In this document: positions 5,832-63,370 of the stretch, piece after piece
Position numbering within the stretch: position 1 is the first letter of the stretch
Layout: each line of letters begins with the position of its first letter
Notes under the pieces: model-generated
Databases searched by the model: none
What the model was told of the DNA's origin: nothing
The model's input: only the letters and a program-made list of their open reading frames with translations
Assembly (NCBI GenBank): GCA_009840525.1
Contig: VXNP01000125.1
Span: 1 to 64,000, forward strand
Direction of reading: 5' to 3'
Length of the DNA stretch: 64,000 nucleotides
DNA from: Gammaproteobacteria bacterium
Lineage (GTDB): Bacteria; Gemmatimonadota; Gemmatimonadetes; Longimicrobiales; Gaopeijiaceae
Translations under genes and position numbers: made by a program

Positions 5832-5855
5832 AACGCCATTCCAGTGGAGACATCG

Positions 5856-9086: not shown

Positions 9087-9139
9087 CCCGGGAGCCCCGC
9101 CCAGGAGTTCTCCCGCGGATGGTGGGAGGGAGAAAACGA

Positions 9140-9649
9140 ATGACTGCAACCACGTGTGTCCTGCGCCGGTGCCGCAATCTCACGGGCATGTCGGTGCTTC
9201 TTCTCGCCGTCGGAGGATGCTTTTCCTACTCGACGGTGCCGCTGGAGACGATCGCCCCCGACCAGCAGGCGCGCTTTATCCTCGACCAGGAAGCCTTTGG
9301 ACGAGTGATGAACCAGGCAGCCATGGAGGGGTTTCCGGTCCAGATGATGAACCTGTCCGGCAACCGCATCAGCGGCCGGGTGGCCGGCATTTCCGCCGAA
9401 AACGTCACCATCCAGTTGCGCGGCGCCGGCGCGTCGGTGTTGAGCACCCAGGTGGCGACCAGCGCGATTCAGGAGGCGGCGATCCGGGAATTCGACCGCA
9501 CCAACACCATCATCACACTCGGCGCGAGCCTGGGCGTGGCTGCCCTCATGATCCAGGGGGGTGTGTTTCCGGGCGGCACGCAAGGCACCGGTGACGTGGA
9601 TCCGGAAAACATGATCGGCTTGCGCCTTTTTTCCATTTCCGTGCCCTGA
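9140..9649 (+). CDS. small lipoprotein upstream of SusC (type A)
   Basis: 169-aa predicted lipoprotein: hydrophobic leader MSVLLLAVGGC gives a lipobox, then CFSYSTVPLETIAPDQQARF. The middle contains a GNRISGRVAGISAENVTIQL segment, and the end has FDRTNT followed by a hydrophobic stretch (TLGASLGVAALMIQGG). The same architecture (C-F-x-Y after the lipobox, beta-rich middle, polar turn, hydrophobic helix near the C-terminus) occurs in the lipoprotein at 56557-57072, which also sits just upstream of a SusC/SusD pair. The start at 9140 is preceded by GGGAGGGAG; 9119 is a weaker option. No known function; recurring in Gemmatimonadota-like genomes by my recollection. Confidence 0.75.
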   Translation: MTATTCVLRRCRNLTGMSVLLLAVGGCFSYSTVPLETIAPDQQARFILDQEAFGRVMNQAAMEGFPVQMMNLSGNRISGRVAGISAENVTIQLRGAGASVLSTQVATSAIQEAAIREFDRTNTIITLGASLGVAALMIQGGVFPGGTQGTGDVDPENMIGLRLFSISVP

Positions 9650-9900
9650 CGACGAACCGCAGTCTGGCCACCAGGCGTTGTTTCTCGCCCGGCGGGCCGC
9701 GCAACGAGACGACAGGCAACGAAACTGTCACCCCTTGCGCGTCGCGCGAACGGGCTTCATTCTGATCGGGTTGCGCCCGGACGCCGGGCAGGGCTGTCTG
9801 TGCTATACGGGCACAGGCTCACGCGCTGGCCGGTTCCGGAGGGGGCGGAGGGGATTGTAAACCGGTGGCAGGAACGCCACCCCAGAGGAAGGAGAGTGTT

Positions 9901-12900
9901 ATGAGAGTCATCCGGCTACTAACCCTTACTCTGCTGCTCGGGGCCACGTCGTGGTCGTTCGCGGAGGCTCAGGTGCCCGCGAACAACGATGTCGGCGTCC
10001 AGGCGGTGGACCGGGCCGCCAGGTCTCTTGGCGACGCCCTGGGCATCCGCGTGACGGACGCGACCCCCATCGTGGGTTCGCTGACCGGACTGGTGACCGA
10101 CGCCGGCTCCGGTCGTCCGCTGTCCGCGGCCCAGGTGTTCATCGAGGGCACCGGCCTCGGCGGCCTGACCAACGCCTCCGGACGTTATCTCATCATCAAC
10201 GTCCCGGCAGGCACCCACACGCTGCGTGTCGAGCTCATCGGCTACACCGCCGCGTCGCAGGAAGTCACCGTCGCCGACGACCAGGCGACAACGGCCGACT
10301 TCGGGCTGAACGAGGAAGTCATCGACTTCGACGAGATCGTCGTCACGGGCACCGCGGGCCAGGCTCGCCGCCGTGAAGTCGGCAACGCGATCGAGCAGAT
10401 CAACATCGCCGAGGTCGCCGAGCCCGTGAACGATGTCGGAGCCCTGCTCCAGGCCCGCGTCCCGGGCGCCCGCATTCAGTTCGGTTCGGGCAACTCCGGC
10501 TCCGGGGTCGACATCCGCCTGCGCGGGAACGTGAGCACCGCGCTCAGCAACCAGCCGATCATCTACATCGACGGCATGCGTGCCAAGAGCGAGCCTACCT
10601 CCAGCGAGAACGGAGCGGAGGACCCCTACAGCCCCCTCGCCGACATCAACCCGGACGACATCGACCGCATCGAGGTCATCAAGGGCCCTGCGGCAACCAC
10701 TCTGTACGGTACCGAGGCGGCGGCCGGAGTCATCCAGATCTTCACCAAGCAGGGCGGCCAGGGCGCTCCGCAGTGGACCGCGGAAGTGCAGCAGGGATTC
10801 TCCTACTTCCGTCCCTTCGGCACTGACGAAGTGCCCCACATGTTCCTCCACCCGGTCTTCCAGAACGGCCACCGCCAGCGCTACTCCATGCAGGTCCGGG
10901 GCGGCACCGGCGACGTCGGGTATTTCGTGTCGGCCGCCTGGAACGACAATCTCGGAGCGGTGGAGACGGACTCCGAGACGAAGCTGAACCTCCGTGCGAA
11001 CACGACCTTCCGTCCCCACGAGGACGTGCTGATTCAGTTCAACAACACGTTGGCGCGGACGGATCTGACGCAGGCGCAGATGGGGAACTCCGTCACCTCC
11101 ATCATGATGACCGCCATCCGAGGGCCGAGAAGCTACATGCCCGGCTTCTCGAATACCGGGCGCGATTACGAGACGCTTAGTCTCCTGCTGAGCGAGGACT
11201 ACAGGAACCAGATCACGCGAGCGGTCAGCGGGCTTACGGTCAACTACACACCGGGCGCTGACTTCACCCACCGTCTCACGCTCGGCTACGACTACTCCCA
11301 GGACGACCACTTCAACGATCAGCAGCACTGCTGGCTTTGCCCCATCGGTCGCTACGGCGATTTCTCCGATTACATCCAGGGCGGAGAGCAGCGCCGCGGC
11401 ATGTCTCAGAACACAGTGGTCAGCTTCGACTACATCGGGACATGGGGCTTCGAGCTGGCCAGCAACATCCGGAGCACTCTGTCGTTCGGAGCACAGGGCG
11501 TCGAGAACGAGATCGAGAACTCCGAGTACGTGGTTCGCCACTACCCGGGCCCCGGCGAATTCACCCTGCAGACGGGTGCAACCAGGCAGGATGTCGACCA
11601 CAACCGCCTCCGCGTCATCACGGGCGGCTTCTTCATGCAGGACCAGATCGGCATCTCCGACAAGTACTTCCTGACGGTCGGTGCCCGCGTTGACGGAAAC
11701 AGCGCTTTCGGTGAGCAGGTCGGTTTCGCGCTCCTCGGCGATGACTTCCGCTTCGACGTCTACCCGAAGATCAGCGGTTCCTACGTTATCTCCGATGAGG
11801 AGTTCTGGCCCGAAACGCTCGGCCAGGTGAAGCTCCGTGGCGCCTACGGCCTCGCAGGCCGGGCGCCCGGCGCGTTCGACAAGGTGCGCACCTGGAGTCC
11901 CGTCGGGATGGGACCGGGCGGCCAGGCCTACTACCCTTCAAACCGCGGCAACGACGCACTCGGCCCCGAGAGGACCATCGAGTACGAGTTCGGGATGGAC
12001 GGCGCGTGGTTGGACGGACGCTTCAACGCCGAAGTCACGTATTATCACCAGACCACCACCGACGCTCTCTTCCGCGTGGCAAGTCCTGCGAGCGAAGGTG
12101 GCTGGGGCTCCCAGCTCCAGAACGTCGGTGAGTTCGAGAACAAGGGAATCGAAATCCAGACCAACACGACCCTCCTCGACACGCGTTCGCTGCGTTGGGA
12201 CCTCGGATTGGGACTCGCCACCAACCACAGCAAGGTGCTGGATCTCGGCGCTGCGTCGCAGTTTTACGTCGGTGAGTATGGCTGGGTCAGAATGGGCTGC
12301 GGCCCGAACGAGGACGAGGGATGCCCGGTGCCGATCATCTACGGCCAGCGCGTCATGAACCACAACGACCTGGCGGATCCGATCTATTCAGACGGGCGCG
12401 TCAATTACGGTCCGGCTAATCCACCCTACATGTTTACGGGGAGCATGTCCTTCGACCTTCCGGGCGGGTTGAATCTCTCCGCCCGCGGCGAGTACCTGCG
12501 AGGAGGATGGATCTCCAACTACTTCGAGACCGGCGCCACCTGGCGCACCATCTCTCATCCGAAATGCTACGATGCGTACCGCAAGGTGGATCCCAACTGG
12601 ACAAACGGCGGCGAGTACGGAGAGGCCCCGCCTCCCCAGGCGCCCGCAACCCGTCCCGCCGACATGTACGCTTGGGAAGTGGCACAGTGCTTCGGTCTGG
12701 CCACCAACGAGCACGGTGTTTCGGAATCGGACTTCGCCGAGCTGCGCGACGTCACGCTCTCGATTCCGGTCTCGAACCTGCTTCCGTCGCTCACGACCTG
12801 GGCCAGCCGGGCCGACCTCGTCATTTCCGGACGCAACGTCGCGTTCTGGACCCACAAGAACCTGGTGACGGGGCATCCCGAGCAGAACGAGAACTCGATC

Positions 12901-13005
12901 GGCACAACGGAATCGGGTGAGTTCCGGCACGACCTGGTGAAGGGCATTGACGAGACGCTTCCACCGGTCTCCTACTTCACGGTTTCCCTGCGCGCGATCT
13001 TCTAG
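9901..13005 (+). CDS. SusC/RagA-family TonB-linked outer-membrane receptor 1
   Basis: 1034-aa SusC-like receptor. Signal peptide MRVIRLLTLTLLLGATSWSF(A), then a carboxypeptidase-regulatory-like domain (GSLTGLVTDAGSGRPLSAAQ to YTAASQEVTV, about 60-135). The plug domain follows (about 150-285), with IIYIDGMRAKSEP and IDRIEVIKGPAATTLYGTEA. The 22-strand barrel ends in an aromatic C-terminus (FTVSLRAIF). SusC proteins form a lid-and-barrel importer with SusD for oligosaccharides or peptides. The start at 9901 has GAGGAAGGAGAG upstream; the longer frame from 9865 lacks a site. SusD follows after 117 bases, with a hairpin in between. Substrate not predictable. Confidence 0.93.
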   Translation: MRVIRLLTLTLLLGATSWSFAEAQVPANNDVGVQAVDRAARSLGDALGIRVTDATPIVGSLTGLVTDAGSGRPLSAAQVFIEGTGLGGLTNASGRYLIINVPAGTHTLRVELIGYTAASQEVTVADDQATTADFGLNEEVIDFDEIVVTGTAGQARRREVGNAIEQINIAEVAEPVNDVGALLQARVPGARIQFGSGNSGSGVDIRLRGNVSTALSNQPIIYIDGMRAKSEPTSSENGAEDPYSPLADINPDDIDRIEVIKGPAATTLYGTEAAAGVIQIFTKQGGQGAPQWTAEVQQGFSYFRPFGTDEVPHMFLHPVFQNGHRQRYSMQVRGGTGDVGYFVSAAWNDNLGAVETDSETKLNLRANTTFRPHEDVLIQFNNTLARTDLTQAQMGNSVTSIMMTAIRGPRSYMPGFSNTGRDYETLSLLLSEDYRNQITRAVSGLTVNYTPGADFTHRLTLGYDYSQDDHFNDQQHCWLCPIGRYGDFSDYIQGGEQRRGMSQNTVVSFDYIGTWGFELASNIRSTLSFGAQGVENEIENSEYVVRHYPGPGEFTLQTGATRQDVDHNRLRVITGGFFMQDQIGISDKYFLTVGARVDGNSAFGEQVGFALLGDDFRFDVYPKISGSYVISDEEFWPETLGQVKLRGAYGLAGRAPGAFDKVRTWSPVGMGPGGQAYYPSNRGNDALGPERTIEYEFGMDGAWLDGRFNAEVTYYHQTTTDALFRVASPASEGGWGSQLQNVGEFENKGIEIQTNTTLLDTRSLRWDLGLGLATNHSKVLDLGAASQFYVGEYGWVRMGCGPNEDEGCPVPIIYGQRVMNHNDLADPIYSDGRVNYGPANPPYMFTGSMSFDLPGGLNLSARGEYLRGGWISNYFETGATWRTISHPKCYDAYRKVDPNWTNGGEYGEAPPPQAPATRPADMYAWEVAQCFGLATNEHGVSESDFAELRDVTLSIPVSNLLPSLTTWASRADLVISGRNVAFWTHKNLVTGHPEQNENSIGTTESGEFRHDLVKGIDETLPPVSYFTVSLRAIF

Positions 13006-13023: not shown

Positions 13024-13056
13024 CCGGGCTCTCCGCTTCGGCGGTTGCGAGCCCGG
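13024..13056 (+). promoter_or_regulatory. intercistronic hairpin between SusC and SusD
   Basis: Perfect 8-bp stem CCGGGCTC (13024-13031) / GAGCCCGG (13049-13056), with an inner CCGC-TTCG-GCGG UUCG-type hairpin. It sits in the 117-base gap between the two genes and has no T run. It could stabilise the upstream message or set the SusC:SusD ratio; that is inference. Confidence 0.4.
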
Positions 13057-13122
13057 CGCCGCGGGAAGGCGGATGCGCAAGGAAGGAAGCAAGATTCCGG
13101 AATCAAGGAGGAGTATACGACG

Positions 13123-14769
13123 ATGAATGCGAAACTATTCATGAAGAGAATCATGGCGACTGGCGCGCTCGCCGGTGTCCTTTCTCTCGCCGCGTGCGAC
13201 CTGGCGGTCACGAACCCCGGTCCGGTGCAGGACGCGACACTCAACCTCGAAGGCGCGTACCAGGGGATTGTGAACGGCGCGATTCGGAGTGTCCAGGAGG
13301 GATTCGACCAGTACGCGCTCCTGGGTGGGTCCATCGTGCACGATCTCATGCCGAGCGGGCACACCGGCGCCGCGGGCGTGCAGGTGGTCGAGGAAATCGC
13401 CGTCCTTACCGCCGAGAACAATGGAGCCGCCGGTGACTGGGGATCCCTCCACCGAGGTCGATGGATCGCCGAGGAGGCGATTCGCCGATTCACGGATCCC
13501 GAGGCCGAGACCCCCGGGTCACCCAGTTTGATCGCCCAGGCGCACTTCTGGGCCGGTGCCGCGACAAGATACCTGGGCGAGAATGCCTGCACGTTCGTTG
13601 TTGATGGTAGTGCGCCGGAGCCCAAGCTGGCGCATTTCGACTACGCGATCAACCACTTCGATCAAGCGGTCTCGATCGGTGGCTCCGCCGGCGAGAGCAC
13701 GCTCGTGACTGCGGCCGTCGGCATGCGGGCAGCGGCGAAGTTGTTCAAGGGCGACTATAGCGGCGCCGCCGCCGATGCGAACCAGGTGCCGTTTGAGTTC
13801 GTCTTCCGGACGAACTACACGGGGTTCGGGGGCGAGTACTACGTGCTGTACGGTCACGTCCTGTCCGAGGGCTTCCAATCCCTCTCGTATTGGGGCACTC
13901 CGGCCGGCGAACACTTCCTGCAGACGGGCGATTCGCGGGTTGCGTTCGGTTACGACAACGGGTCCCGGGAGGTCCGAGAGGGTTTGAGCCACTCCGACCG
14001 GGCCCAGAATCACCCGGCTCGCCCCACCTGGACGGCTCTGGTCCCCATGTTCTATCCCCTCAAGGGGATCGCGCCGCGTGACCCGGCTCGCGAGTTTCTC
14101 TTCTTCGAGCCCGACCGTGCCCAGCAGCGAGAGACATTGCAGCTCGATCTGGTCGACGGCCGCGAAATGGAACTGATCAAAGCCGAAGTCGAGCTGCGCA
14201 ACGGAAACTGGCAGGCCGCCATGGCGCTCATCAACAACGTGCGCACGACTTCGCCGGTCTATCCGATCGACATGACCGACCCGAACAAGTTCGACCTCAA
14301 GCTGCATCCGGCGGAGCAGACGGACTGGGACGCCAACCCGGATATGGCCGCCTACTTCAATCAATTCGACTACGAGCTGAAGGACTTCACCGAAGGCGCG
14401 ATGATGGAGCCGATGGGCAACATGATGCTGGGTGACCGCATGATGAAGGCTGTCGAAGCCAGCAGCATGGAAGAGGCGTGGACCGCGCTCAAGTTCGAGC
14501 GGCTCATCGAGCTGACGCTGGAAGGCCGCCGTCTTGGCGATCGTTGGCGCTGGCGGAGCAACTCCGAGCCCGTGGCGCCCTCATCGGGGCCCGGAGGCGA
14601 AAACACGCCGGGCACCTATAACCGGTTGGAGTTCATTCCACCGTCGCATGCGGCGCGGTACAACGTGCCGACCGACCCGCTGAACCTGTGCTTCCCGCTT
14701 CCTGTGTCGGAGAACGACACCAACCAGAACGTTCCCGAGGACTACAGGGACTGGGTACCCAGGCCGTAG
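13123..14769 (+). CDS. SusD/RagB-family outer-membrane lipoprotein 1
   Basis: 548-aa SusD-like substrate-binding lipoprotein and partner of the SusC at 9901. The leader ends LSLAAC, a lipobox, followed by DLAVTNPGPVQDA, typical of this family. TPR-like helical repeats fill the middle. The C-terminal signature AWTALKFERLIELTLEGRRL(GDRWRW) is the usual SusD motif around residue 470. A strong AAGGAGGAG ribosome site lies about 8 bases before the ATG at 13123. A terminator hairpin follows 32 bases after the stop. The paralogue at 51960 is shorter (456 aa) and divergent. Confidence 0.92.
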   Translation: MNAKLFMKRIMATGALAGVLSLAACDLAVTNPGPVQDATLNLEGAYQGIVNGAIRSVQEGFDQYALLGGSIVHDLMPSGHTGAAGVQVVEEIAVLTAENNGAAGDWGSLHRGRWIAEEAIRRFTDPEAETPGSPSLIAQAHFWAGAATRYLGENACTFVVDGSAPEPKLAHFDYAINHFDQAVSIGGSAGESTLVTAAVGMRAAAKLFKGDYSGAAADANQVPFEFVFRTNYTGFGGEYYVLYGHVLSEGFQSLSYWGTPAGEHFLQTGDSRVAFGYDNGSREVREGLSHSDRAQNHPARPTWTALVPMFYPLKGIAPRDPAREFLFFEPDRAQQRETLQLDLVDGREMELIKAEVELRNGNWQAAMALINNVRTTSPVYPIDMTDPNKFDLKLHPAEQTDWDANPDMAAYFNQFDYELKDFTEGAMMEPMGNMMLGDRMMKAVEASSMEEAWTALKFERLIELTLEGRRLGDRWRWRSNSEPVAPSSGPGGENTPGTYNRLEFIPPSHAARYNVPTDPLNLCFPLPVSENDTNQNVPEDYRDWVPRP

Positions 14770-14844: not shown

Positions 14845-15021
14845 ACCAGCCTCAAGCCTGACACCGTCCTGGAAACGAACCGCCGGTTCTCAGGGTATTC
14901 CATGAACCTCGGGGTCGTCCCGGTTTACTGCCCCCACGGTCGTGATGTTGGTCAGCCGTAGTTGGTGTCGACCTCGCCGGAGCGACGCCCGCATCCGGCA
15001 GGTTTCGCGAAGGAGAACCCG

Positions 15022-15750
15022 ATGAACCGTCTGTCGATTCCGTTTTCTTCGGCAGCGATCGCGCTGCTGGCCGCTGCATCGCCGGTGCTGGGCCAGGAGG
15101 GCGGCTCCATCGTGGGCGAGGTGGTGGACAACGTCACGATGAAGCCCGTCATGGGCGCCACCGTCACGGTGGTGAGCCACGAGCTCACCGGTGTCACCAA
15201 CGAGGACGGTCATTTCTCCCTGCGCGACGTGCCGCCCGGCAACATCTCCGTCAGGGTCGAACAGCTCGGCTATATCGCCATCGTGGGCGAAGTGGAGGTC
15301 CGCGCGAACGACGTGACCTTCGTACAGTTTCCGCTTTCTCCCATGGCCTTCCTGCTGGACGAACTGCGCGTCGTCGCAGACCGGCCCGAAGAGGAGGTGC
15401 AGGACGGCGGGATTTTCACGGAGATCATTCCCGACGACTCGGATTCAGCGCGCAATGCCCTGGAGTTGCTCACCGCCCGGGTCCCCTCGCTTTCGGTACG
15501 CACGGATGCAATGGGCGGCGCTACGCGCAGCGAGATACGCATCCGCGGTAACGCTTCCGTCTCGCAGAGTAACATGCCTTCGATCTACATCGACGGCGCG
15601 AGAGCGGATATCGTGTACCTGGAGGACCTCTCCGCGACCGAGGTACGCAGGATTCGCGTGTTGCGCGGCCCCTCCGCCGCGTCGCTCTACCCCGACGCGG
15701 CCAACGGCGTCATCCTGGTCGAGACGTGGCGGTCCCGCGGTGGAGCCTGA
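15022..15750 (+). CDS. barrel-less TonB plug-domain protein with carboxypeptidase-regulatory domain
   Basis: 242-aa exported protein. Signal peptide MNRLSIPFSSAAIALLAAASP, a carboxypeptidase-regulatory-like domain (about 24-105: GSIVGEVVDNVTMKPVMGAT, RVEQLGYIAIVGE), then a plug domain (about 115-238) with SIYIDGARADIVYLEDLSA and VRRIRVLRGPSAASLYPDAA. It stops right after the plug (VILVETWRSRGGA) with no beta barrel. A full TonB receptor would continue for 500 or more residues. No barrel-coding sequence follows before the convergent gene at 15802, so this is not a simple frameshift. AAGGAG lies before the ATG at 15022. Two other plug-only proteins occur in the window (25827, 62078). Confidence 0.8.
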   Translation: MNRLSIPFSSAAIALLAAASPVLGQEGGSIVGEVVDNVTMKPVMGATVTVVSHELTGVTNEDGHFSLRDVPPGNISVRVEQLGYIAIVGEVEVRANDVTFVQFPLSPMAFLLDELRVVADRPEEEVQDGGIFTEIIPDDSDSARNALELLTARVPSLSVRTDAMGGATRSEIRIRGNASVSQSNMPSIYIDGARADIVYLEDLSATEVRRIRVLRGPSAASLYPDAANGVILVETWRSRGGA

Positions 15751-51959: not shown

Positions 51960-53330
51960 TCAGCCGCCGATAGTGGGAATGTTGTCGTTACGCTCACGCT
52001 CCGAGTTGGGAACGTCGAAGCAGAGGCGCACCTGGCCGTTGATGATTGTCCCGCGCGGCGTATCGGGATCGTTGAACATCCTGGGTTCGACGGCCGCGAA
52101 GTCGGGGAGCTCGAGGTCACCCGGCGTGTTGTTCTCCTCCCAGCGGCGCTGATCGCCCAGCGTGCGGGCCTCCAGGAAGAGCTCGATCGCCCGCTCGCGC
52201 TTGAGGTACGTCCAGGCCCCTTCCAGGCTCATCGCATCCCGCGGCGCCAGCGGCGTGCCGCCCGCATGCAGCATGGTCTCGTCGGTGGTGTAGGTGGCCC
52301 GCAGGTTGTTGATGATGGTCATCGCCGCCTGCCAGTTGCCATTCGTCAACTGGGCCTCGGCTTCGATGAGCCGCATCTCCCGGCCGCTGGCGACGTTGTA
52401 CGAGTCGCTGGGATCGTCGTACTTGGTCTGGTTGAACCACGGCGTCTGCCCGTAGTCTCCCAGTGCGGCGTTCGACCACGGGTTCAGCGGGTCATCGAAC
52501 CATTCCGTGCGCGGGTCCCCGGTCTCCTGGTAGTAGCCGGACGCGCGATTGGCGCCGTCTGCGGCCGACGGGTCGAACTGCGGTCCGTAGTGGGTGTTCC
52601 ACATGGTGAAGGCCAGGTAGGGTTCCCTCGCGTTGGCCCACTGCGGAGTATTGCGCGTGGTTGCGACGGCGCCGTCCGACAGGACCACGTACTCGAAGCT
52701 GTTGGGGACGCCGCCCGCGTCCGCGGCCGCACCGCCCCAGTCACCCAGGAAGGCGCGCACCGACGCGCGGCCCGCCGTGGCCGCCATCCTCAGGGTTTCG
52801 TTGGGATTCAGGGCCAAGGCGGCGTTGAACTGCTCCTCGGCCCGCCTCAGGTAGTCCGACCCGGGGAGCAGCCCCGAACCGTTGATGACCGCCTCGCACC
52901 AGTTCTCGCCCAGAAGCCGGTTCGAGAACCCGGCCCAGACGTTGGCCTGCGCGACGACATCGGCATCGACGTCCTGGTCCGCAAACAGATCGAGGGCGGT
53001 CTCGGCGATGAAGCGGGCCTGCTGGGCGTCGTTGAAGTATCCGCCATATGAGCCCTGCTCGATGTGCCCGGCCTGGGCGACGACGCTGTGTCCATAGGCG
53101 CCGGTCTGACCCCCCGGCATGAGTTGCCGGGTCACGATTGCGCCCGTATACCCGATCCAGCCGATGGCCTCGTTGAGCCGGCGCTGGGAACCGTTGACCA
53201 GCCCTTCGCGGGACTCCTCCTCTACCAGGAACTCGTCCTGGATGGGGCCCGGGTTGATGACTTCGCAAGCGGCGATCCCGAACAGGGTCGCCACGAGGGT
53301 CGCACTTCTGATTGTGTTCTTCGCGTTCAT
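51960..53330 (-). CDS. SusD/RagB-family outer-membrane lipoprotein 2
   Basis: 456-aa SusD-like lipoprotein: leader RSATLVATLFGIAAC gives the lipobox, followed by EVINPGPIQDEF. SusD helical repeats, and the C-terminal signature AWTYLKRERAIELFLEARTL(GDQRRWEE). ATG at 53330 follows GGGAGGG. It begins 14 bases after the SusC stop, closer than in pair 1. The longer frame to 53630 is antisense-like overlap with SusC. Confidence 0.92.
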   Translation of the reverse strand: MNAKNTIRSATLVATLFGIAACEVINPGPIQDEFLVEEESREGLVNGSQRRLNEAIGWIGYTGAIVTRQLMPGGQTGAYGHSVVAQAGHIEQGSYGGYFNDAQQARFIAETALDLFADQDVDADVVAQANVWAGFSNRLLGENWCEAVINGSGLLPGSDYLRRAEEQFNAALALNPNETLRMAATAGRASVRAFLGDWGGAAADAGGVPNSFEYVVLSDGAVATTRNTPQWANAREPYLAFTMWNTHYGPQFDPSAADGANRASGYYQETGDPRTEWFDDPLNPWSNAALGDYGQTPWFNQTKYDDPSDSYNVASGREMRLIEAEAQLTNGNWQAAMTIINNLRATYTTDETMLHAGGTPLAPRDAMSLEGAWTYLKRERAIELFLEARTLGDQRRWEENNTPGDLELPDFAAVEPRMFNDPDTPRGTIINGQVRLCFDVPNSERERNDNIPTIGG

Positions 53331-53344
53331 GTTTTTCCCTCCCC

Positions 53345-56335
53345 TTAGAACGTGATCCGGAGGGACGCGTGCAGCGTGATCGGCGCCGGCACGGACTCTT
53401 CGAAGCCGTAGCCCCCCTGGGTCTGGTTGGCCGGGGGATCGGCGGTCAACTCGGGATCCATGAACGGCATCTCCGCCATCCAGAGGTAGGAGTTGCGCAG
53501 CGCGAGGGTGAAGGTGGCGTTGCTCACCCGCTCCGGCATGATCGCGTCCACGGGAATGGTGGCGGCGACGGAGCGCAGCTTGAAGAAGTCGCCCTTCCAC
53601 ATGTAGCCCTCGCCTTCCCTTCGGTTGCAACGGGCACGGTAGATGGCGGGCGTGTCGTCGCGGAGGTCAATGCCGCCGGCCCAGTCCGTGTACCAGGGGT
53701 AGCAAAGATGCGAGCGGACGCTCCGCGAGATGGACCAGACGGCCTCGTTCATGTAGAAGCCGCCTTTGAATTCACCGGCTGCGGAGAGGGTGATGTTGCC
53801 CGGCGTGCGCACCGCCAGATTCCCGTTGATGAAGGTGGTGGGCAGGTTGGGGCCGTAGTTGTGCCCGTGCACATCCTGACCGCCTGACGCGTTCGCCTGC
53901 ACCTCGGAGCATACCTCCGGGCCCGGGCAGTAGTCGGGGGCCGCGATCTCGTCCGGATTCTGCACCAGGTAATCGCGCATGTTGCGCACCGGACAGCCTT
54001 CGTCGCCGTTCGGTCCGCAGTCCATGCGGAGCGAGTTGGTCCAGGGAATGCCCAGTTCCAGCACCTTGGAGTTGTTGGTGGTCAGCGAGCCGCCGACGTC
54101 AACGCCCCAGGTCCGCGTGTCGAGCAGCGTGGCGCCCAACTCAAGCTCGATCCCCTGGTTCTGGATACTGCCGATGTTGGTGAGCTGGCTGTTGGTGAAG
54201 CCGTTGGAGGGAATCTGGGGAACGTTCAGGAGCGCGTCCCGGGTGACCTGACGGTAGAACGTGAAGATGGTCGTGAGGCGGTCGCCCAGCCACGACGCGT
54301 CGAACCCGGCCTCGATCTCCTCTGTCACCTCGGGTCCGACCTCGTCGTTGCCGACGTTGGCGGGCACGAACGCCGGCACGCCGGCCAGTCCCGCCGGATT
54401 CCAGGTGCGCACGGCGTCGAAGGCGCCGGGGGCGCGTCCCGACTGACCGAAGGCGGCGCGCAGCTTGAACTCGCCCAGATCCGGCCAGAAGGACTCATCC
54501 GAGATGATCCAGGATCCGCTCAGCTTCGGGTACACCTGCAGGCCGAAACCCTTGCCGAAGGCGCTGTTGCCGTCCACCCGCGTCCCCACGGTGATGAAGT
54601 AGCGGTCGGAGATGTCGAAGACGTTCTGAAAGAAGAAACCGGCGTTCCAGATCTTGGAACGGGTCTCGAACGCCTGGGTCTCGGCGGCGGAGTTCAGGGT
54701 CGGGTCCGCGGCGCCGGGGAAGTTCTCCCCGAACCCCTCGACGTTGCGGTCGTCGTCCCCGATGGCCTGCCCGCCCCAGGAGAAGCTCGAGCCGATCGAG
54801 CCGGTCAGGTCGAAGGTGTAGGTACCGACGTAGTCGAAGGAGAGTACGCGGTTCTGGAAGGTGTTGTTGAGAAGCGATCCGAGGGGCACCTGGCGCCACG
54901 CGTAGGGGCGCAGGTTGCGGTGCTCCCGGCTGGACCAGTCGTAACCGATCGTGAAGCGGTTGGTCATCCGGTCCAGAGGCTCGTAGGTGATGGTCGCGCC
55001 GGTGGTCAGCCGCTCGATGTCCTCGGCCAGATCCTGGTCCATCAACACGTTCAGCACTTCGGGGTCCCCGGTGCCGAAGTAGTTGCGCTCGGCCCGGAAG
55101 GCGTTGAGGGTGATGCCCTGGGCGTTGTTCTGCCCGGCGGTCATCGTGAGGGCGTTCCTGGCGTACGAGGTGTTCCACTGAACCGTGAGGTTGTTCGCCG
55201 GCGTGAAGGTGAAGTTCGCGCGCGTGTTGTACTTCCTCTGACTGTCGTTGGTCATGTAGCCCTGCTCGTCCAGGAACCCCCCGGACACGAAATACTGCAG
55301 GTCCTGCCGGCCGCCGCGCACGGAAAGCGAGTAGTCCGTGGTGAACGGCGAGCCCGGATGGTATTGGCCACACGAGAACGGCCCGGTGCAGAGCCAGGGC
55401 CCCATGTTGATGTAGGGATCGGCGTTGTCGACATCCACGCCGAACTTGCGGCTCCAGGCGCTTCCGGCCTTCACTTCGGCCGTCCACACGGGCGCCCCTG
55501 CGGCCCCTCTCCTGGTGAAGATCTGGATGACCCCCGCGGAGGCCTCGGTGCCATACAGCGTGGTGGCCGCCGAACCCTTGATGACCTCGATGCGCTCGAT
55601 GTCGGCCGGGTTGATGTTGTCGAGCGGGCTGACGGCGATGTTGCCGCTGCGCCCGCCCCGGCGGTCCGGCGGGTTCGCGTCGGGGAGCGGATCGCTGCGC
55701 ATGCGTACCCCGTCGATGTAGACCAGCGGGTGGTTGGAGAGCGACACGCTGCTCTGCCCGCGCAGGCGGATGATCTTCGCCTGGCCGATGCCACCGCCGC
55801 CGTAGACCTCCAGCCCGGGCGCCTGCGACTGCAGGAGATCGGAGACCAGGACCGGACGGTCGGGAACCTCGGCGACGTTGATCTGGGCGATGGTGTTGCC
55901 GATCTCGCGCTGGCGGGCGGCGCCTGCGGTGCCGGTCACGACGATCTCGTCGAGGCCGAGCGCCTCCTCGGTCAGGGTGAAATCCTGAACCACGGTCTCG
56001 CCGGCGGCGACGGTGATCTGCGCGATGCTCGAACCCAGGCCGATGCGCTCGGCGCGCATCTCGTAGGTGCCCGGCGGCACGTTCAGCAGAACGTAGCGCC
56101 CGTTACCGCGGGTCAGGGTTCCGATGCCGGCGTCGGTCAGGAACACCTGGACCTCGCCGAGGGCCGCGCCGGAACCTTCTTCGGTGACCTGGCCAGTGAC
56201 GCGGCCAGGCTCCTGCGCCGCCGCGGGAAGCGCCGAGATCAGCCCCCCGGCCACGAGCAGCATGGCCGGAAGTGCGATCCGACGCCGACCTGGCGACCGG
56301 GCGGTGGTTGGGTTTGCGAACCTTCGATTCTTCAT
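53345..56335 (-). CDS. SusC/RagA-family TonB-linked outer-membrane receptor 2
   Basis: 996-aa SusC-like receptor. A signal peptide with an Arg-rich n-region (RRRIALPAMLLVAGGLISAL), a carboxypeptidase-regulatory domain (VTGQVTEEGSGAALGEVQVF to RAERIGLG), a plug (PLVYIDGVRMRSDP, IERIEVIKGSAATTLYGTEA) and the barrel to a C-terminal LHASLRITF. The ATG at 56335 has GGAGG at 5 bases. It forms an operon with SusD 2. The lipoprotein at 56557 lies 221 bases upstream on the same strand, as in pair 1. Confidence 0.93.
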   Translation of the reverse strand: MKNRRFANPTTARSPGRRRIALPAMLLVAGGLISALPAAAQEPGRVTGQVTEEGSGAALGEVQVFLTDAGIGTLTRGNGRYVLLNVPPGTYEMRAERIGLGSSIAQITVAAGETVVQDFTLTEEALGLDEIVVTGTAGAARQREIGNTIAQINVAEVPDRPVLVSDLLQSQAPGLEVYGGGGIGQAKIIRLRGQSSVSLSNHPLVYIDGVRMRSDPLPDANPPDRRGGRSGNIAVSPLDNINPADIERIEVIKGSAATTLYGTEASAGVIQIFTRRGAAGAPVWTAEVKAGSAWSRKFGVDVDNADPYINMGPWLCTGPFSCGQYHPGSPFTTDYSLSVRGGRQDLQYFVSGGFLDEQGYMTNDSQRKYNTRANFTFTPANNLTVQWNTSYARNALTMTAGQNNAQGITLNAFRAERNYFGTGDPEVLNVLMDQDLAEDIERLTTGATITYEPLDRMTNRFTIGYDWSSREHRNLRPYAWRQVPLGSLLNNTFQNRVLSFDYVGTYTFDLTGSIGSSFSWGGQAIGDDDRNVEGFGENFPGAADPTLNSAAETQAFETRSKIWNAGFFFQNVFDISDRYFITVGTRVDGNSAFGKGFGLQVYPKLSGSWIISDESFWPDLGEFKLRAAFGQSGRAPGAFDAVRTWNPAGLAGVPAFVPANVGNDEVGPEVTEEIEAGFDASWLGDRLTTIFTFYRQVTRDALLNVPQIPSNGFTNSQLTNIGSIQNQGIELELGATLLDTRTWGVDVGGSLTTNNSKVLELGIPWTNSLRMDCGPNGDEGCPVRNMRDYLVQNPDEIAAPDYCPGPEVCSEVQANASGGQDVHGHNYGPNLPTTFINGNLAVRTPGNITLSAAGEFKGGFYMNEAVWSISRSVRSHLCYPWYTDWAGGIDLRDDTPAIYRARCNRREGEGYMWKGDFFKLRSVAATIPVDAIMPERVSNATFTLALRNSYLWMAEMPFMDPELTADPPANQTQGGYGFEESVPAPITLHASLRITF

Positions 56336-56556
56336 AACGGCCTCCGATGAAGGGAACAGTCGTTGGGCAGAGCCGCCTCTCGGCGTATGCTCACGCGCCG
56401 CAACGGCGTGCGTGCACAGCACCGTAGGTGGACGGGGCCGACGGACGCTTGGCTACAACCTAGCAGAGTAGGCGCGAGCGCCCCCTGACGTCAAGCCGCT
56501 GCAACGCCTCCGTGCCCCCCGGCACCGGCCGGCTGCGCCGCGGGACGAGGCCCTCG

Positions 56557-57072
56557 TCAGTGCCCGAAGCGAAGGATGATAACCGGGCGGCGGCGGTCTT
56601 CCACCGGGTCGACGGGTTGGACGACCGAATCCGGTTGACGGGCGTCGTTCAGGATGAAAACGATGAGCCCGGTGATGACGGCCGCGGTCCCCCCGACCAG
56701 CAGGCCCGTTTTCGCGCGGCTGAGCTCCTGGCGTTCGATCTGGACGATCTCGCCCGCCGGAACCCGGATATCCTGCCCCAACTGCGAGCTGTGGAACCCC
56801 ACCTGCCGCCGAACCGTGGGGATGCGCACATAAAAGTCGGCGTCGGTCCGGCGCACGAACTCACCGGAGAGCACGGGCTCGAACAAAGTGTTCAGCGCAT
56901 CCTCGTTGCCGGCCTCGTTTATCGCATCCACGCCCGCGCGCGTAAGGAACAGCCGCACCGATTCGCCGGGCGGCACCGCTCCGATCTCGGTGGGCACGTA
57001 GTTGAAGCAGCCCGTGGTGGTGGAGAGCACCAGGACGGCGGCGAAGTGTCGGAGGTAGTGACTCGGCTTCAT
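56557..57072 (-). CDS. small lipoprotein upstream of SusC (type B)
   Basis: 171-aa lipoprotein: leader FAAVLVLSTTTGC, then CFNYVPTEIGAVPPGESVRL, a beta-rich middle (VRRTDADFYVRIPTV, GQDIRVPAGEIVQIE), a turn SRAKT and a hydrophobic helix (GLLVGGTAAVITGLIVFIL), ending in a Pro/Arg-rich tail. Same plan as the lipoprotein at 9140. A TTG at 57081 is an alternative start. Function unknown; probable envelope partner of the SusC/SusD system by position. Confidence 0.72.
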   Translation of the reverse strand: MKPSHYLRHFAAVLVLSTTTGCFNYVPTEIGAVPPGESVRLFLTRAGVDAINEAGNEDALNTLFEPVLSGEFVRRTDADFYVRIPTVRRQVGFHSSQLGQDIRVPAGEIVQIERQELSRAKTGLLVGGTAAVITGLIVFILNDARQPDSVVQPVDPVEDRRRPVIILRFGH

Positions 57073-57199
57073 CGGCAGCAACTGATTGAGGTTCTCCCAA
57101 CACTAATCCTGTCACCGTTGGGTCGGCAACGATGGATCCGCCACCGTAGCGCCGCGCAACCGGCGTTGACGCCCCGGACCGGGGCGCCGACAATCCACC

Positions 57200-62077: not shown

Positions 62078-63370
62078 TCAGCGCAGTACGCGGAAGATGC
62101 GGTCCGCGAGCGTCGTCATGAGCGGCGTGCCGACTGCCAGCAGGACGATCCCCGCGGTCTCTGCGGCGCCGGACTCGTTGCTCCTGCCCTCGATGAGCAG
62201 GAGGTAGCCGGCGGTCGCCGCCATGGCGCTTCCAAGCGCGGCAGGGAGAAAGCGTCCCTTGGAGCGGTCGGTCTGACCGGCCCACCCGGCCGAGTAGCCT
62301 CCGGCCGCGCTGGGCAGCGCCAGCGCCAGGATGCCCGTGCCCGTCGTCAGGATGCCGGTGCAGCGCGGACGCAGGCCCCCGAGGCCGGTATCGATTTCAA
62401 GGCATCGGTTGGCCAGACCGAGCCCGAGTGCCAATCCGACCGCGTTCCCCACGAAGGAGCTGGCGAAGACCCGCTCCCATCCGTAACGCTCCCCCTCCAG
62501 GGACCAGTCGAAGCCGGTAACCAGGTTATCGGAAGCGGCCTCGCGTTGACGCTGCGGACCGGTCTTGGTCTCCACCAGCAGGGCGCCCCCTCCCGCAGCC
62601 ATGCCGAACCGCGTCGACGCCTGCAGGGGCGACAGCAACTCCACGCGCGCTATGTCCTCGAGAGGCATCGAGAAGTAGAGCAGCGACGGCACCGCCGCCC
62701 TGACTCCGTCCACGTAGATGGACACGTCGTTGCATCCACCCTGAGCCGACGTGGAGCGGTACTCGACGCAGGACCCGGTTCTGCTCGAGCGCACCCTCAA
62801 GCCCGGCAGGTGCTGCGAGAGCACGTCCGACAGGGCGAGCCCGCGTCGGGCTGCCTCGCTGAGCTGCGCCGGGCCGACCTCGTTCATGGAATGGCCAGTG
62901 GAGATCCTCCTCTGTTCCAGCTCGGTAACCGCCTCCACGACGAGAGGCTCGAGTTCGATGGTTCGCGGCGCAAGGCGCACGTCGAGGCGCAGATCCTCGC
63001 CCGGATTCACCGCGATTTCGCGCGACTGGTCGCCAAAGGCCAGATGCTCCACCACCAGGATGTGCGCCCCCTCCGGGACCACTTCGAAGCGGAACATTCC
63101 GGCTGCGTCGGTCACGGTGGAGAGGCCGAGGTCGTGAAGGCGCACGACGACATCGGGGATAGGCCGGGAATTCTCATGCTCGAGCACGCGGCCGGTCAGA
63201 GTCCCGGTTTGCTGGGCCGCAACTGGGGTCGCGGACACCAGCGTCAGGACGCACAGCAGGGCCACGAACGAGGTCGCTGGGGCACACCTCGCGAGCGCGC
63301 GCCACACCGCAACCGAGAGTCCCGGATGTGCGTCGGTTGGCGCCGGTAGGACCGGCCGGAGGGAAGTCAT
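62078..63370 (-). CDS. plug-domain protein with membrane C-terminus instead of barrel
   Basis: 430-aa protein. Signal sequence (TSFVALLCVLTLVSATPVAA), carboxypeptidase-regulatory domain (GTLTGRVLEHENSRPIPDVV to VVEHLAFGDQSREI) and a plug domain (about 155-270) with VSIYVDGVRA, IARVELLSPLQASTRFGMAA and ALLVETKTG. Instead of a barrel it ends in about 140 residues with four Gly/Ala/Leu-rich hydrophobic stretches (for example GNAVGLALGLGLA and GYLLLIEG). Two Cys in the plug (SCVEYRSTSAQGGC) may pair. ATG at 63370; a TTG at 63400 is possible. Function unknown. Confidence 0.75.
   Translation of the reverse strand: MTSLRPVLPAPTDAHPGLSVAVWRALARCAPATSFVALLCVLTLVSATPVAAQQTGTLTGRVLEHENSRPIPDVVVRLHDLGLSTVTDAAGMFRFEVVPEGAHILVVEHLAFGDQSREIAVNPGEDLRLDVRLAPRTIELEPLVVEAVTELEQRRISTGHSMNEVGPAQLSEAARRGLALSDVLSQHLPGLRVRSSRTGSCVEYRSTSAQGGCNDVSIYVDGVRAAVPSLLYFSMPLEDIARVELLSPLQASTRFGMAAGGGALLVETKTGPQRQREAASDNLVTGFDWSLEGERYGWERVFASSFVGNAVGLALGLGLANRCLEIDTGLGGLRPRCTGILTTGTGILALALPSAAGGYSAGWAGQTDRSKGRFLPAALGSAMAATAGYLLLIEGRSNESGAAETAGIVLLAVGTPLMTTLADRIFRVLR

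Follow-up and report, generated by a model that had tools for sequence, protein, structure and literature searches.

The gene described here lies on the minus strand of the window, by which we mean the whole stretch of 64,000 nucleotides that was analysed. It encodes a protein with the front half of a SusC/RagA receptor and a predicted helical membrane tail. The features of the gene and the nearest receptor locus are listed below.

62078..63370, minus strand: whole gene, 430 amino acids, ATG start, TGA stop, open reading frame without interruption
63212..63370, minus strand: signal peptide, residues 1-53, ending in VAA with cleavage before Q; cleavage site inferred from the motif
62936..63202, minus strand: CarboxypepD_reg-like domain (SusC-type N-terminal extension), residues 57-145; Pfam PF13715/PF13620 above cut-off
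62930..62959, minus strand: altered TonB box, residues 138-147, IELEPLVVEA; from motif counts in the family and in barrel receptors
62582..62890, minus strand: TonB-receptor plug domain, residues 161-263; Pfam PF07715 above cut-off
62732..62770, minus strand: plug Cys pair C201...C213, around the loop where ordinary plugs carry RIRG...P; from comparison of family plugs
62081..62518, minus strand: C-terminal membrane tail, residues 285-430 (146 residues); helical in AlphaFold2 models, no Pfam match above cut-off
62402..62479, minus strand: tail helix 1, residues 298-323, in both AlphaFold2 models
62360..62404, minus strand: tail hairpin between C323 and C337, two short strands in the tail-alone model
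62276..62356, minus strand: tail helix 2, residues 339-365 in the mature-protein model, 339-364 in the tail-alone model
62180..62251, minus strand: tail helix 3, residues 374-397, in both AlphaFold2 models
62096..62170, minus strand: tail helix 4, residues 401-425 in the mature-protein model, 401-429 in the tail-alone model
53345..56422, minus strand: SusC-like receptor with plug and barrel near the gene, by Pfam; SusD at 51960-53630

The coordinates 62078-63370 in the earlier note were correct. They enclose an unbroken reading frame whose ATG occupies an alignment position common to all nine same-genus orthologues. G+C at codon positions 1, 2 and 3 was 0.71, 0.46 and 0.84 in the plug part and 0.67, 0.59 and 0.86 in the tail. 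Against the nine orthologues, dN/dS was 0.06-0.11 for the CarboxypepD_reg-like domain plus plug and 0.05-0.19 for the tail. Invariant residues are present in a 17-sequence alignment of the family, and a full-length paralogue in the same genome is 40% identical over residues 33-427. The earlier note had named a frameshift as a possible source of the unusual architecture. Because codon bias is kept through both halves, the tail is under purifying selection and the plug-tail unit is conserved (the tail is found in 39 of 395 genomes of the phylum, see below), a frameshifted or chimeric reading frame is ruled out. The window gene is genuine, intact and under purifying selection.

The front half has the parts of SusC/RagA receptors (TIGR04056; PDB 9gbc, 8aa4, 5t3r and 6sli), namely signal peptide, CarboxypepD_reg-like extension and plug, in the same order. 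PF13715 scored 49.7 bits against a cut-off of 32.2, and PF07715 scored 29.7 bits (E 9.6e-7, cut-off 23.9). Foldseek matches include the NTE of a SusC (9hfj), and a sequence profile matches 9gbc over the front half at E 3e-20. TIGR04056 gave only 57.3 bits on the protein, below its curated cut-off of 368.25. A hydrophobic core ahead of the CarboxypepD_reg-like domain was present in 60 of 62 distinct family members, with an AxA-Q-like cleavage site in 44 of the 62, which suggests that the signal peptide exports the protein. Unlike SusC/RagA receptors, however, family members are without a barrel and the canonical TonB box, and they carry a plug Cys pair and a helical tail.

To describe the TonB box, we compared segments between the CarboxypepD_reg-like domain and the plug. 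The canonical D[EAQ]xxV[TV]G box was found in 0/55 family segments and in 16/16 barrel receptors, the latter being distinct tail-less CarboxypepD_reg-plug frames of more than 600 aa from the collected loci. In contrast, P[LVIF]x[VIL]E stood in the box position in 43/55 family segments and in none of the 16 receptors. In a study of Bacteroides thetaiotaomicron, deletion or mutation of the VDEVVV box of a SusC caused growth defects like those of SusD loss, and a functional need for the DEVVVTG-type TonB box is shown for Bt1763 (PMC7782687). The altered box suggests that the family is uncoupled from the usual TonB drive, and its members are probably not TonB-driven in the usual way.

The Cys pair that the earlier note had seen in the plug, C201/C213, proved to be a family trait. 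Exactly two Cys are present in 66 of 67 distinct family plugs, and the single exception is a plug cut by a contig end. Among 39 further plug rows from this genome, which include domain fragments, none has a pair at equivalent positions; an RIRG motif is found there instead. The two Cys probably form a disulfide that would steady a plug with no surrounding barrel.

The tail contains hydrophobic stretches at about 301-324, 337-358, 374-395 and 400-426, which are the four C-terminal segments of the earlier note. AlphaFold2 folds them as helices and not as strands. The mature protein was modelled with 23 sequences (mean pLDDT 77.8, pTM 0.37) and the tail alone gave pLDDT 75.9 and pTM 0.65, so that confidence in the tail helices is moderate. 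Both models have four long helices, and the tail-alone model places a short hairpin, flanked by C323/C337, between helices 1 and 2. This second Cys pair, absent from the earlier note, is present in 37/37 tails thinned at 80% identity. The placement of the tail against the plug is not predicted, given the low pTM of the whole model. A small beta barrel, the other alternative raised in the earlier note, finds no support in the helical models, and no barrel family matched the window protein or its tail among Pfam and curated profiles.

Residues 285-430 matched nothing above cut-off in Pfam. Kinship with TctB (PF07331) was rejected, as the whole protein scored 11.6 bits and the tail 14.1 against a cut-off of 29.1. 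Compared with PDB sequences, the tail had a sole match to a designed repeat protein (E 0.21), which we took as chance. Foldseek with the tail model returned nothing at E≤0.001 (best 0.89), and this negative result does not establish that the fold is new. The best structural match was the four-helix membrane domain of Pyrococcus dolichyl-phosphate mannose synthase (5mlz; VIA-align Z 6.3, a value common for helical bundles, rmsd 4.2, 117 aligned). However, identity is only 9%, and the GtrA/DPMS-type domain family gives the tail no Pfam match.

We searched for the family in related genomes. Matches at E≤1e-30 were found in 21 of 59 relatives, including 11/11 of its own genus with the window genome counted, and most genomes of the genus have two copies each. 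A tail-only profile detected the tail in 39 of 395 sampled Gemmatimonadota genomes, of which 38 belong to the same taxonomic family and one to a different family of that class. The earlier note had proposed a homologue search restricted to the full-length architecture. We collected 107 tail-bearing frames from overlapping or redundant loci. A plug match was present in 105 of these, and the other two were cut by a locus or contig end; the tail is thus paired with a plug in every complete frame examined, and no tail without a plug was found among these frames. A weak partial tail match (E 6e-4) occurs in the genome G155, within a 485-aa frame without plug or CarboxypepD_reg-like domain. The plug and tail trees agree (r 0.78, 66 members, 0 of 1000 permutations), although shared descent alone would give the same result. 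A front-half pattern search of the whole contig collection gave 22 loci that extend into the tail and three more with the front part only (L116-L118). All 22 are titled Gemmatimonadetes, BD2-11 or Gammaproteobacteria, and the close copies are metagenome-assembled genomes. In the sampled Gemmatimonadota the tail was seen only with plugs, and the two travel together. Three of the copies (L095, L096 and L101), which are 92-95% identical and titled Gammaproteobacteria, have matches and neighbours that group with Gemmatimonadota and are probably mislabelled bins.

To examine the topology of the tail, we counted charges in a set of 37 tails, thinned at 80% identity. Of these, 32 have more K+R in loop 2 plus the C-terminus than in loops 1 and 3 combined, 3 have equal numbers and 2 have fewer. 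The mean net charge was +2.9 for loop 2 plus the C-terminus and -1.7 for loop 1 plus loop 3. Inner-membrane proteins keep positively charged loops off the periplasmic side (the positive-inside rule). With an exported plug, four spans would put loop 2 and the C-terminus in the periplasm, against this rule, and would also put the conserved hairpin Cys (C323/C337) in the reducing cytoplasm. A simple four-span inner-membrane topology is therefore contradicted by the tail charges, and the tail would have to insert with three spans or lie in a different membrane. Judged from the sequences, a three-span model in which only helices 2-4 cross the membrane would fit export, charges and Cys together. The plug, the Cys hairpin and loop 3 would then be periplasmic, and loop 2 and the C-terminus cytoplasmic. 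However, the mean KD of helix segments 1-4 is 1.51, 1.13, 1.25 and 1.88, and that helix 1 is not the least hydrophobic counts against this model. The inner membrane is the most likely place for the tail. Of the inner-membrane helices described in the earlier note, the multi-helix tail joined to the plug stands and is conserved as a unit, but their inner-membrane placement is opposed by the charges if all four span.

The window copy lies outside any SusCD operon. Its nearest SusC is 5.7 kb away, with SusD beyond that SusC. One neighbour is a DUF5117/DUF4953 Met-zincin by Pfam, and the other we take to be MATE-like from its sequence. We predicted neighbour genes by codon bias in 27 regions around family genes. 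A SusD-like gene (Pfam, E≤0.001) was found within about 8 kb in 8 of 23 testable regions, whereas 0.92 such regions would be expected (P about 1e-6). With the Pfam cut-off as the criterion, six regions remain and P is about 2e-4. The expected figure was calculated from SusD counts per genome with rounded genome sizes, and since the regions are related, these P values are too small and only indicative. Four of the 27 regions were left out, L157 and L112 because their genomes have no SusD count and L094 and L097 because they are almost identical to the window copy, of which they are orthologues. No SusD cluster member was seen in these four regions. L142 (SusD at E 0.0088) and L152 (no Pfam match, clustered with SusD by BLAST) were counted as negative. 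At the remaining 15 loci, SusD was absent from this range of about 8 kb.

In L141, L149, L154, L156 and L158, the family gene adjoins the receptor gene and SusD on one strand, in some with a small lipoprotein gene between them. A different conserved context was seen in L148, L150, L153 and L155, where a gene with PD40 and BNR propeller repeats adjoins the family gene. In G031 (L145:7992-10175), plug and tail share one reading frame with a BNR-type propeller, and the CarboxypepD_reg-like domain is absent. The window itself has two small lipoprotein-like genes, at 9119-9649 (plus strand) and 56557-57081 (minus strand), with CFxYxP after the signal, ahead of SusC-like genes. Neither has a Pfam match, and the second clusters with genes that flank family members. 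We set the small lipoprotein aside as a partner of the family, since a similar-looking one precedes the SusC at 9865 and the gene may belong to SusC loci generally.

Parts of this architecture have precedents in the same genome. Barrel-less CarboxypepD_reg-plug proteins have a SusC-type front half that ends at the plug, beside SusCD; compared with the family, they lack the membrane tail and the plug Cys pair. An example in the window is 14962-15750 (plus strand), a 262-aa protein with no barrel or tail encoded directly after SusC (9865-13005) and SusD (13045-14769). Another barrel-less protein of this kind, of 355 aa (L162:1542-2606, C36), has an end that by eye resembles a second copy of the last motif of the plug. 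The same genome also encodes a Peptidase_M56 (BlaR1-type) protein with a C-terminal plug (L161:384-1847). As in the family, its plug is joined to several hydrophobic segments; the M56 helices and peptidase come first and the plug last, however, and it has no CarboxypepD_reg-like domain. PF05569 (Peptidase_M56), which is found on this protein, had no match on the window protein up to E 10. The next gene (L161:1873-2382, C108) encodes a 170-aa lipoprotein-like protein that is mostly plug.

The earlier note did not recognise the combination of plug and membrane helices, and we found no described protein with a plug and a helical tail. The literature search covered mostly open-access papers and is weak evidence of absence. 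However, the combination is less isolated than it appeared: the same genome already offers the general kind, both in its barrel-less plugs and in a multi-span protein that carries a plug. What is new is that the helices follow the plug, together with the tail family itself, the changed TonB box and the two Cys pairs.

We are close to certain of the architecture of the family and of the selection on it, and we think it likely that the protein is held in a membrane and faces the periplasm. The family probably does something other than transport. The reading that we prefer, with about even confidence, is that its members are barrel-less, TonB-uncoupled pseudo-receptors of Gemmatimonadota, held in a membrane and acting alongside SusCD-type uptake loci. 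The signal peptide would export the protein, and a C201-C213 disulfide would staple the plug so that it could fold without a barrel. The tail would anchor the protein, most likely in the inner membrane, which helices 2-4 would cross, and helix 1 and the Cys hairpin would stay on the periplasmic side. The periplasmic front half could then dock onto SusC-type receptors or cargo as an adaptor or regulator that is not pulled by TonB, in SusCD-type uptake or a neighbouring step. That the family is an accessory of SusCD-type uptake is plausible but falls somewhat short of even odds, and the docking role of the front half is speculative. It is equally a long shot that the front half of a receptor now serves as an interaction module in the periplasm, anchored perhaps by helices in the outer membrane or by an odd number of spans in the inner, and links SusCD-type uptake to a membrane step performed by no known Sus component.

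Among the alternatives, the protein might be a sensor or signal transducer, whose plug-bearing front half would read the condition of a receptor or ligand in the periplasm and whose helices would relay it across the inner membrane, like BlaR1-type M56 proteins. The Peptidase_M56 protein, in which membrane helices precede the plug, shows that plugs occur on multi-span proteins, and the propeller that replaces the CarboxypepD_reg-like domain in G031 also favours this idea. However, Pfam and curated profile scans of the window protein found no peptidase, kinase, DNA-binding or anti-sigma domain, its loops of about 10-20 residues leave no obvious cytoplasmic domain, and no recurrent regulator was present among the named clusters of neighbour genes, which are selected clusters only. 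We consider a signalling role unlikely.

More improbable again is a tail that crosses the outer membrane, which would expose the Cys hairpin on the cell surface and leave the plug, loop 2 and the C-terminus on the periplasmic side. Every Cys pair would in that case lie in an oxidising compartment, and the charge rule of the inner membrane would not apply. The tail helices are also only moderately hydrophobic, with KD peaks of 1.35-1.69 compared with 2.0-2.5 in three of the four peaks of the neighbouring MATE-like fragment. In the same comparison, however, an M56 protein and a rhomboid gave peaks of 1.05-1.8, so that peaks of this height would also suit an inner-membrane protein. The rarity of helical outer-membrane spans, of which Wza is an example, also counts against the idea.

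We regard it as very unlikely that the anchored plug acts in trans to close or regulate the barrel of a partner receptor. Receptors and family genes do adjoin in several loci, but the neighbouring receptors that we scanned (L154, the two in the window and L103) all carry their own plug, which counts against a plug supplied in trans to barrels that lack one. The family is also missing the RIRG motif that ordinary plugs have, and TonB could not pull the family plug. Least credible of all is a decaying receptor remnant without function: barrel and TonB box are lost, but the low dN/dS of both halves, the invariant residues and the two copies in most genomes of the genus argue strongly against decay.

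SusC receptors have an N-terminal extension of undefined function, and in B. thetaiotaomicron its removal stopped growth on levan (PMC7782687). The family keeps this extension and the plug without a barrel or TonB box. It is thus a natural separation of modules and offers a way to test the roles of extension and plug apart from transport. The annotation 'TonB-dependent receptor plug' in Gemmatimonadota includes proteins that cannot be transporters, which matters when uptake systems are tallied in these mostly uncultured bacteria.

Elsewhere in the window, four similar proteins with an RRTFLRG-type start are encoded on the plus strand at 5844, 22470, 37781 and 43701. Each sits between one larger neighbour and one neighbour of about 590 aa, apparently as a three-gene cassette repeated four times.
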